Shown: piece by piece, positions 1 through 1,009 of the stretch
Layout: the number at the start of each line of letters is the position of its first letter
Position numbering within the stretch: the first letter of the stretch is position 1
Assembly: GCF_014274465.1 (NCBI RefSeq)
Contig: NZ_CP060394.1
Location: 4,836,001 to 4,900,000, forward strand
Direction of reading: 5' to 3'
DNA from: Alloacidobacterium dinghuense
GTDB lineage: Bacteria; Acidobacteriota; Terriglobia; Terriglobales; Acidobacteriaceae
Length of the DNA stretch: 64,000 nt
Notes under the pieces: model-generated
The model's input: only the letters and a program-made list of their open reading frames with translations
What the model was told of the DNA's origin: nothing
Databases searched by the model: none
Translations under genes and position numbers: made by a program

Positions 1-126
1 GGCGGAGCCAAAATGGTGCGCAAGCTTCTTCACATATGCGAGGGCCTTCAGTGAGCTCTCAGAAAAGTCGGTTGCAAAAAGTATCTTTTCGACGGTGAGT
101 GCGATGGGCTGGCCAATGACTGGCAT
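1..126 (-). CDS. Universal stress protein (UspA family), N-terminal part only
   Basis: The first 42 codons of a minus-strand gene run off the left edge of the window. The translation opens MPVIGQPIALTVEKILFATD and continues FSESSLKALAYVKKLA, the first beta-strand and helix of the Usp fold (hydrophobic strand, then the ATD-FS-S motif). An AGGAGGG ribosome-binding site lies 5 bases before the ATG. Usp proteins are cytoplasmic, often ATP-binding, stress and starvation proteins. The gene diverges from the CRP/FNR regulator at 284 and shares its upstream region, including the palindrome at 201-220, so regulation by that protein is plausible (inference). ATP-binding residues lie outside the window. 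Confidence 0.85.
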   Translation of the reverse strand, partial: MPVIGQPIALTVEKILFATDFSESSLKALAYVKKLAHHFGSA

Positions 127-200: not shown

Positions 201-220
201 GATGTGATCATGGTCACATC
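201..220. promoter_or_regulatory. CRP-type palindromic operator
   Basis: The core reads TGTGA-N6-TCACA at 203-218. The dyad extends to 20 bases (GATGTGATCATGGTCACATC) with a single mismatched pair. This is the consensus half-site layout of CRP. It lies 75 bases upstream of the uspA start and 64 bases upstream of the regulator start, so it could serve either promoter or autoregulation. Confidence 0.65.
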
Positions 221-283
221 CAGGCAATCGGCTCTTTTGATAAAAATGATTTGTTCTCCTCGCGTTTCGCGAAAGCGCATACT

Positions 284-1009
284 ATGCGTATCGTTATGCC
301 AGCGCCGACGATCCCATCGACTGACTCCTGCAAGGATTGCACCCTGCGCGGGGTGCGCATGTTCTGCAACCTGCACGACGATGCGCTGAATCATCTGGAT
401 CAGATGGGTGTCCAGGTCCGCTATCCTGCGCGGGTGAACATCTTTCAGCAGGGAGAGAAGGCGCGTGCGCTGCACGTTCTGTGCTTCGGACATGTAAAGC
501 TCTTCACCACTTCTCGCAGAGGCAAAAGCATGATTCTCAAAATCGCATGGCCCGGAGACGTGCTCGGCCTGAGCGCCGTGCTGAGCCAGGGCGACTATGA
601 GGTGACGGCGGAAACCCTCGAACCTTGTCAGGTGAAGACGTTGCGTCACGACGAATTCCTCGCCTTCATCGACAAATTCAGTGAGGCTGGACGGCATTCG
701 CTCGAAAGCATGGCGAGCGAGTATCAATCAGCATTTCGCGATGCGCGGCGACTTTCGCTTGCCGGCTCGGCCGCTTCTCGGCTTGCGAACGTGCTGCTCG
801 ACCTTGCGCGGAATGCTGTAGACGACAGGAAAGAGCTGCGTTTCAACATTGCGTTGACGCACGAAGAGCTTGGCAATCTTGCGGGGCTTTCCCGTGAGAC
901 GGTGACACGCCTGCTCGGAAAATTTCAGCGTGAAGGACTGCTCAGAATTAAAGGGGCCTCCATCACCATCGCTGACCAGAGCCGCTTCAGCCGTATAACT
1001 GAAGGCTGA
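284..1009 (+). CDS. CRP/FNR-family transcriptional regulator with FNR-like cysteine cluster
   Basis: A 241-aa protein with a cyclic-nucleotide-binding-type beta barrel (about 35-145), a dimer helix and a C-terminal winged helix-turn-helix (about 190-230). Near the N-terminus C16-x2-C19-x8-C28, plus C115 in the barrel, match the positions of FNR's four Fe-S ligands, so an oxygen- or NO-sensing cluster is possible. The recognition helix SRETVTR carries R204, E205 and R209, the CRP R-E-x3-R readout for TGTGA, and such a site lies upstream at 201-220. I chose the ATG at 284 because the frame extending upstream to 95 runs through the palindrome and overlaps uspA antisense; the ATG at 296 is an alternative. 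Sensing mode and targets are inferred. Confidence 0.85.
   Translation: MRIVMPAPTIPSTDSCKDCTLRGVRMFCNLHDDALNHLDQMGVQVRYPARVNIFQQGEKARALHVLCFGHVKLFTTSRRGKSMILKIAWPGDVLGLSAVLSQGDYEVTAETLEPCQVKTLRHDEFLAFIDKFSEAGRHSLESMASEYQSAFRDARRLSLAGSAASRLANVLLDLARNAVDDRKELRFNIALTHEELGNLAGLSRETVTRLLGKFQREGLLRIKGASITIADQSRFSRITEG

Follow-up and report, generated by a model that had tools for sequence, protein, structure and literature searches.

The window, a stretch of 64,000 nucleotides from the single 6.27-Mb contig that makes up the genome of Alloacidobacterium dinghuense, begins with two divergent genes and a palindrome between their starts:

1–126, minus strand: 5' part of the gene for a two-domain universal stress protein (USP), with its ATG at 126
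203–218, plus strand: candidate operator, a perfect TGTGA-N6-TCACA, between the divergent USP and regulator starts
280–285, plus strand: TACTAT, a -10-like element and possible promoter part
284–1009, plus strand: gene for a regulator of the Crp/Fnr superfamily, which translates to 241 aa
296, plus strand: ATG, an alternative start of the regulator that would give 237 aa

An earlier sequence-only reading of this DNA had taken the open reading frame at 284–1009 for a regulator, which its translation and Pfam domains bear out (HTH_Crp_2, E=4.7e-18; cNMP_binding, E=5.2e-16; Crp, E=2.1e-12). PF00027, PF13545 and PF00325 all exceed their cut-offs, giving the order of beta-roll and then Crp-type HTH by which the Crp/Fnr superfamily is recognised. 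The adjoining USP gene, also noted in that reading, is divergent, encodes two Usp domains (Pfam Usp, E=1.6e-51) and extends beyond the window, the longer ORF being L004:426-1412 on the minus strand. The true start of the regulator may be ATG 296 instead of ATG 284. The TACTAT element overlaps ATG 284 and is kept in a relative with 80% identity, which also has an ATG at the position of ATG 296; the use of ATG 296 in one comparison followed from a nearest-ATG rule, and carries no weight for that start. Around TACTAT lies an inverted repeat, CGCATACTATGCGTA at 276–290, which overlaps ATG 284 and is identical in the 80% relative. A promoter scan found no consensus sigma-70 promoter pair.

The 80% relative, the closest named one, comes from an Acidobacteriales MAG (L001); it is the same protein as that of locus L005 from the window's genus, and L001 is left out of the counts below for that reason. 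A Granulicella MAG encodes a homologue with 49% identity over the whole protein. Of the 200 genomes in the family, 158 have a match at E 1e-40 or better; among the three other genomes listed for the genus, one has a match at this level and two have none (G070, 99% complete, and another that is 59% complete). The scan of viral contigs gave one relative, and phages gave seven weak matches. The regulator reaches none of the cut-offs of the 15 NCBIfam families listed, including PRK11161 for FNR (85.9 bits against a cut-off of 228). When compared with solved chains, the family profile scores M. tuberculosis CRP and GlxR chains (4e-33 to 6e-32) ahead of FNR (1e-27), FNR comes marginally first for the single window protein, and on the tree the clade and FNR are not grouped together. 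Whole-sequence similarity is thus undecided between FNR and CRP, and the family may have inherited its FNR-like cysteines or arrived at them independently.

The regulator has five cysteines, with none after C115. MAFFT alignment to FNR and CRP of E. coli places these and one further residue as follows (all on the plus strand):

329–331: codon of C16, predicted metal ligand, aligned with FNR C20
338–340: codon of C19, predicted metal ligand, aligned with FNR C23
365–367: codon of C28, predicted metal ligand, three residues beyond the FNR C29 position
482–484: codon of C67, predicted fourth metal ligand, at the FNR R72 position and the end of predicted strand 63–67
626–628: codon of C115, aligned with FNR S119 and CRP C92, not conserved and no ligand in our reading
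635–637: codon of K118, at the position of the fourth FNR ligand, C122

The C-x2-C-x8-C arrangement, with eight residues between the second and third cysteines, is present in the translation as had been described. Of the four cysteines that had been assigned to FNR ligand sites, C16 and C19 do occupy the C20 and C23 positions, C28 is three residues off, and C115 lies three residues before the C122 position, so that the ligand set of enterobacterial FNR is incomplete here, with C29 shifted and C122 replaced by K118. Conservation separates C115 from the other cysteines: all 31 close homologues have Cys at each of the positions of C16, C19, C28 and C67, but 18 of the 31 have it at that of C115, where the 80% relative has Thr. 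Among 37 aligned members, hand-picked as carrying C16, C19 and C28 and 30–80% identical to the window protein, 13 columns do not vary (C16, C19, C28, C67, G69, K72, G91, G95, L159, H193, R204, E205 and R209), the invariance of the first three being partly a result of this selection. The spacing between the second and third cysteines was counted as 8 in 90 rows of a 108-row acidobacterial clade, 6 in eight, 7 in one and absent in nine; the eight rows scored as 6 end in CFC, and their printed motifs show x8 as well.

C67 closely follows the N-terminal triad of C16, C19 and C28. Homologue ORFs that are 190 aa or longer and lie completely within their locus (125 of 130, or 124 after removal of one duplicate) have both the triad and C67 in 100 cases, the triad only in one, C67 only in three and neither in 20. 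With 40 rows added, some of them chosen as late-starting and so likely to lack the triad, and five short matches left out, the counts over 164 homologues are 114, 2, 5 and 43, respectively (Fisher p=2e-31, uncorrected for phylogeny although the rows are related). These loci were hand-chosen among the matches listed and are nearly all acidobacterial, and the scoring of the triad relies on an N-terminal alignment that is uncertain and in which L104, spaced CxxCxxCxxC, is counted as having the triad. The two triad rows that lack C67 (L129 and L218) carry a cysteine at position 118, i.e. the position of FNR C122. All 116 triad rows therefore have either C67 or Cys118, never both and never neither. 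L129 is one of two Bacteroidota relatives from 585 plasmid records, the other (L130) having no triad. Within the 108-row clade, all 99 triad rows have C67. Five triad-less rows retain C67, and these we count against its being a ligand.

General decay of triad-less paralogues could give a similar picture, and to exclude it, the 15 columns conserved in at least 95% of 113 triad rows were compared in 18 triad-less relatives (the rows of this group and of the 108-row clade being named by hand). C67 is the column most often lost (kept in 5 of 18), the next lowest is kept in 8 of 18, and R204, E205 and R209 are kept in all 18; the same pattern is repeated with the 99 triad and nine triad-less rows of the clade. 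A tree built without the tested columns has 14 changes of the triad, 10 of C67 and 16 of their joint state, so that about eight changes coincide, against a rough expectation of 0.43 under random placement over 325 branches. The tree of the 108-row clade alone has five changes of the triad, four of C67 and six of the joint state. A conservative independent-pairs test with only four usable pairs (the starred branches) gives 2.6 in the same direction, 0 in the opposite and 1.4 without difference, which is not significant.

The version put forward in the sequence-only reading, an ordinary FNR-type cluster on C16, C19, C28 and C115 with only the Cys2–Cys3 spacing altered, can be judged against the same counts. 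All four cysteines are indeed in the protein, and C115 is found in more than half of the close homologues. However, it does not align with a ligand of FNR, the 80% relative has Thr in its place, the tree has 26 changes at this position, and in the 124 homologues it shows no association with the triad (55 with both, 46 with the triad only, 13 with C115 only and 10 with neither; p=1.0). We reject C115 as the fourth ligand and hold this version to be the least probable of those considered. The fourth ligand appears to have been misassigned, and the comparison of sequences points to C67.

The recognition helix is of the CRP type:

893–910, plus strand: R204-E-T-V-T-R209, in the context S-R204-E205-T-V-T-R209

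R204, E205 and R209 correspond to CRP R180, E181 and R185 and are kept in 108 of 108 clade rows, in agreement with the R-E-x3-R pattern first recognised in the single sequence. A test suggested along with that pattern, co-conservation of the cysteines with RExxxR, holds for C16, C19 and C28, which are combined with R204, E205 and R209 in all 99 triad rows of the clade. The refuting outcome named there, loss of the cysteine positions among close homologues, is seen for C115 and not for C16, C19 or C28. The upstream palindrome, TGTGATCATGGTCACA at 203–218, has the CRP-type TGTGA half-site noted there and is a perfect TGTGA-N6-TCACA; the 80% relative keeps the half-sites with a different spacer (TCATGG against TCTCAG). 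The genome contains five perfect sites, compared to none for a reversed control pattern. By the ORF lists, two of these read as intergenic, and the other three fall within an ORF or at its beginning. The other intergenic site (C1:3348927-3348942, locus L036) is just upstream of a xylulokinase-like ORF.

Across the family, the 300 bp upstream of the 108 clade genes contain a perfect TGTGA-N6-TCACA in 19 cases and a match of at least 9/10 in 31, where shuffled upstream regions give 0.05 and 0.45. The remaining controls, as perfect and at least 9/10 matches, are 0 and 0 for coding stretches, 0 and 1 for the reversed motif, and 0 and at most 1 for changed spacings; an FNR-type TTGAT-N4-ATCAA gives 0 and 1 upstream of the same genes. 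Unbiased enumeration of 5-mer palindromes also puts TGTGA-N6 first with 19, followed by GTGAT-N4 with 7. A site of at least 9/10 is absent from 77 of the 108 upstream regions, including 25 of the 31 closest, and self-regulation through such a site is therefore not universal. Enterobacterial FNR has a V-E-x-x-S-R helix and a TTGAT operator, whereas the family of the window regulator has RExxxR and TGTGA, the residues and operator of CRP. The mixture of FNR-type cysteines with a CRP-type reading head, proposed from this one gene, is thus real and family-wide, with its 99 of 99 triad rows and enriched CRP-type operator. On its own it is less unusual than was then held, because Fnr of Bacillus subtilis, an Fe-S sensor, is paired with a TGTGA-N6-TCACA-like operator.

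It is conceivable that the palindrome belongs to another regulator such as Rex and that the window protein does not act there. Rex of S. aureus binds TGTGAn6TCACA sites (PMC2883068). The spacers of 30 family sites differ from the Rex site TTGTGAAW4TTCACAA, with A as the first letter in 0 of 30 and T as the last in 0 of 30. The N-terminal domain of Rex (PF06971) has no match in this genome, although 7 of 14 control genomes do match, and the window regulator is the only full-length Crp/Fnr-type protein identified in the genome, where the five HTH_Crp_2 matches are the regulator itself, a 103-aa stub, one protein taken to be ROK-like and two matches that score under the cut-off. Given the spacer letters and the missing PF06971 match, Rex is disfavoured as the owner of the operator, and we consider ownership by another regulator improbable.

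RExxxR and TGTGA-N6-TCACA are hallmarks of CRP, a cNMP_binding domain is present, and the family profile ranks CRP chains above FNR, all of which would suit a CRP-like regulator that depends on cAMP and whose cysteines play no part in sensing. The cAMP pocket is missing, however: E72, R82, S83 and S128 of CRP are kept in none of the 108 rows, R123 in one and T127 in two, the window protein having L, Y, E, A and F at E72, R82, S83, T127 and S128. The NCBIfam CRP model gives 72.8, short of its cut-off of 266, and the presence of C67 in every triad row of the clade also speaks against idle cysteines. With the pocket residues replaced across the clade, cAMP sensing is disfavoured and appears very improbable.

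The neighbouring genes offer an indication of the signal. Nine loci carry a perfect site between the regulator and a divergent neighbour ORF, and seven of these neighbours could be assigned: USPs (L004, L005 and L109), cytochrome bd subunit I, CydA (L126), a POR_N protein, i.e. pyruvate:ferredoxin oxidoreductase (L076, with two sites), a multihaem cytochrome (L084) and a Fer4 protein (L123). The neighbour in L010 has no Pfam match, and that in L081 was outside the scan. USP clearly outnumbers every other family, accounting for 27 of 73 scanned neighbour ORFs (hand-chosen out of 205 found), and 23 of 44 loci have a USP relative no more than about 10 kb from the regulator. The cydAB genes are near the regulator in just two of 44, and the cydA locus of the present genome has no operator within two mismatches, so cydA is not claimed as a target in this genome. 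One batch of ten scanned neighbours included three without a match, and a nitronate monooxygenase match on the same strand (L121).

At 0.1 umol/l O2, Acidobacterium capsulatum upregulates several usp genes, two by 7- and 56-fold, together with pyruvate genes that include por, according to the accessible text of PMC11636273, which proposes a sensor histidine kinase (84-fold up) as the low-oxygen sensor; its main text, as available, mentions neither “Crp” nor “cytochrome bd”. Together, the neighbour genes and the A. capsulatum response suggest, rather than prove, that the signal is low oxygen.

A structure model built from a three-row alignment has a mean pLDDT of 61, with values under 40 for residues 1–30, too low for a judgement of the metal site. 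Its strands 63–67 and 117–121 are ones that we take to be adjacent in the cNMP jelly-roll, and C67 would then lie beside the place of FNR C122. The best Foldseek match of the model is a holo-FNR variant from A. fischeri, closely followed by CRP-type chains.

On this evidence, it seems moderately probable that C16, C19, C28 and C67 form a metal centre, probably Fe-S, that senses O2 or redox state, and that the protein acts through a CRP-type operator to regulate its own gene and the USP gene. The regulator would be a dimeric Crp/Fnr protein sensing through a centre that is most likely an Fe-S cluster, with C16, C19 and C28 on the N-terminal loop and with C67, where a beta-roll strand ends, predicted to replace FNR C122. 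The holo-dimer would read TGTGA-N6-TCACA via R204, E205 and R209, working like FNR with a CRP reading head, and from the operator at 203–218, between its own gene and the divergent USP gene, it probably controls both. As cytochrome bd, pyruvate:ferredoxin oxidoreductase, multihaem cytochrome or USP genes share this operator in some relatives, the output is probably a low-oxygen programme.

The same four cysteines may bind zinc, or form a thiol/disulfide switch, with no Fe-S cluster. CxxC pairs are common in zinc and Fe-S sites alike, and a zinc or thiol site would leave much the same conservation, since sequence cannot separate the two; the family profile is also nearer to CRP-type than to FNR chains. 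The positions of C16 and C19 at FNR C20 and C23 argue indirectly for a cluster instead, as do the two rows that pair the same triad with a cysteine at the FNR C122 position, the respiratory and USP neighbour genes, and the holo-FNR variant as best structural match. We regard a zinc or thiol site as rather unlikely, though considerably more probable than C115 ligation, cAMP sensing or a foreign operator.

If the Fe-S reading is extended to the family, the window regulator may belong to a large acidobacterial branch of Fe-S Crp/Fnr sensors, in which the fourth ligand has moved from the C122 strand to the neighbouring C67 strand and a CRP-type reading head serves a low-oxygen switch for USP, bd oxidase and pyruvate:ferredoxin oxidoreductase. 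This wider proposal is a tentative one, to which we give somewhat less credence than to the sensor itself. Such a branch is undescribed in the literature searched: a keyword search of open-licence literature, in which subscription papers are poorly represented, found no description of a C67-type site, which is weak evidence that none exists. RedB came into question as a relative, and the available main text of PMC9603854 contains neither “cysteine” nor “Fe-S”.

Judged from sequence comparison, the regulator is a Crp/Fnr protein that departs from the ligand set and operator of FNR, from the pocket of CRP and from the C-terminal ligands of Bacillus Fnr. With FNR of E. coli and A. fischeri it shares the Crp/Fnr fold, the CxxC at C20/C23 and, in E. 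coli, a USP gene next door (uspE), and it differs in having the third cysteine three residues later, K118 for C122, and C67 instead. The adjacency of fnr and uspE in E. coli K-12 (L039) indicates that the FNR–USP neighbourhood is not solely acidobacterial. CRP of E. coli and M. tuberculosis, the latter being the top chain for the family profile, is alike in the R180/E181/R185 triad and operator, and unlike in that the window family lacks the cAMP-pocket residues and has the N-terminal cysteine triad plus C67.

Fnr of B. subtilis and B. cereus resembles the window regulator in being a Crp/Fnr protein whose Fe-S ligands depart from the classical set and in having a TGTGA-N6-TCACA-type operator, and an Fe-S sensor on a CRP-type operator therefore has a precedent in B. 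subtilis; the new point is the predicted shift of the fourth ligand. The cluster of B. subtilis and B. cereus Fnr is held by three C-terminal cysteines and Asp141, as given in the accessible text of PMC3520743, whereas the window protein has no such C-terminal cysteines. FnrP of Paracoccus denitrificans has its [4Fe-4S] ligands at C14, C17, C25 and C113, i.e. a spacing of x7 (PMC4771820, text available in part), and shows that a longer Cys2–Cys3 spacing is tolerated in a [4Fe-4S] sensor; the window protein has x8, and its fourth ligand is predicted at C67 and not at a C122-type position. FNR of Acidithiobacillus ferrooxidans, in the part of PMC6659574 available, lacks Cys29 and still drives an FNR promoter. 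It is similar in its altered ligand set, and differs in keeping the C122-type cysteine, where the window protein has a shifted third cysteine and has lost the C122-type one.

A checklist based on the cysteines of E. coli FNR would call such proteins short of a fourth ligand, or pick the wrong one, as happened here. If C67 is a ligand, the family would combine FNR-type sensing with a fourth ligand placed on a different strand, and would offer a natural experiment in the coupling of cluster and dimer. It would also supply a named candidate regulator, with a defined operator, for the acidobacterial nanoxia response, in which usp and por are upregulated and for which PMC11636273, in the text available, favours a histidine kinase.

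Some shorter proteins with parts of the same architecture were also found. The 103-aa HTH_Crp_2 protein of this genome, which has no sensor domain (L042:1432-1743, at about 5.24 Mb of C1), adjoins an ORF that is ferritin-like by eye. Seven of the 73 scanned neighbours match PF00027, and separate ORFs with only a cNMP-binding domain lie beside the regulator in L008, L011, L014, L022 and others. Short ORFs of 165–190 aa carrying the sensor only are found beside a full-length regulator at L065:2323-2895 (plus strand), L062:1804-2376 (plus strand) and L072:1446-1937 (minus strand). They match the profile at about 5–160, with C-x2-C-x8-C and a C67-type cysteine and no HTH match, and are possible dominant-negative partners of the full-length protein.
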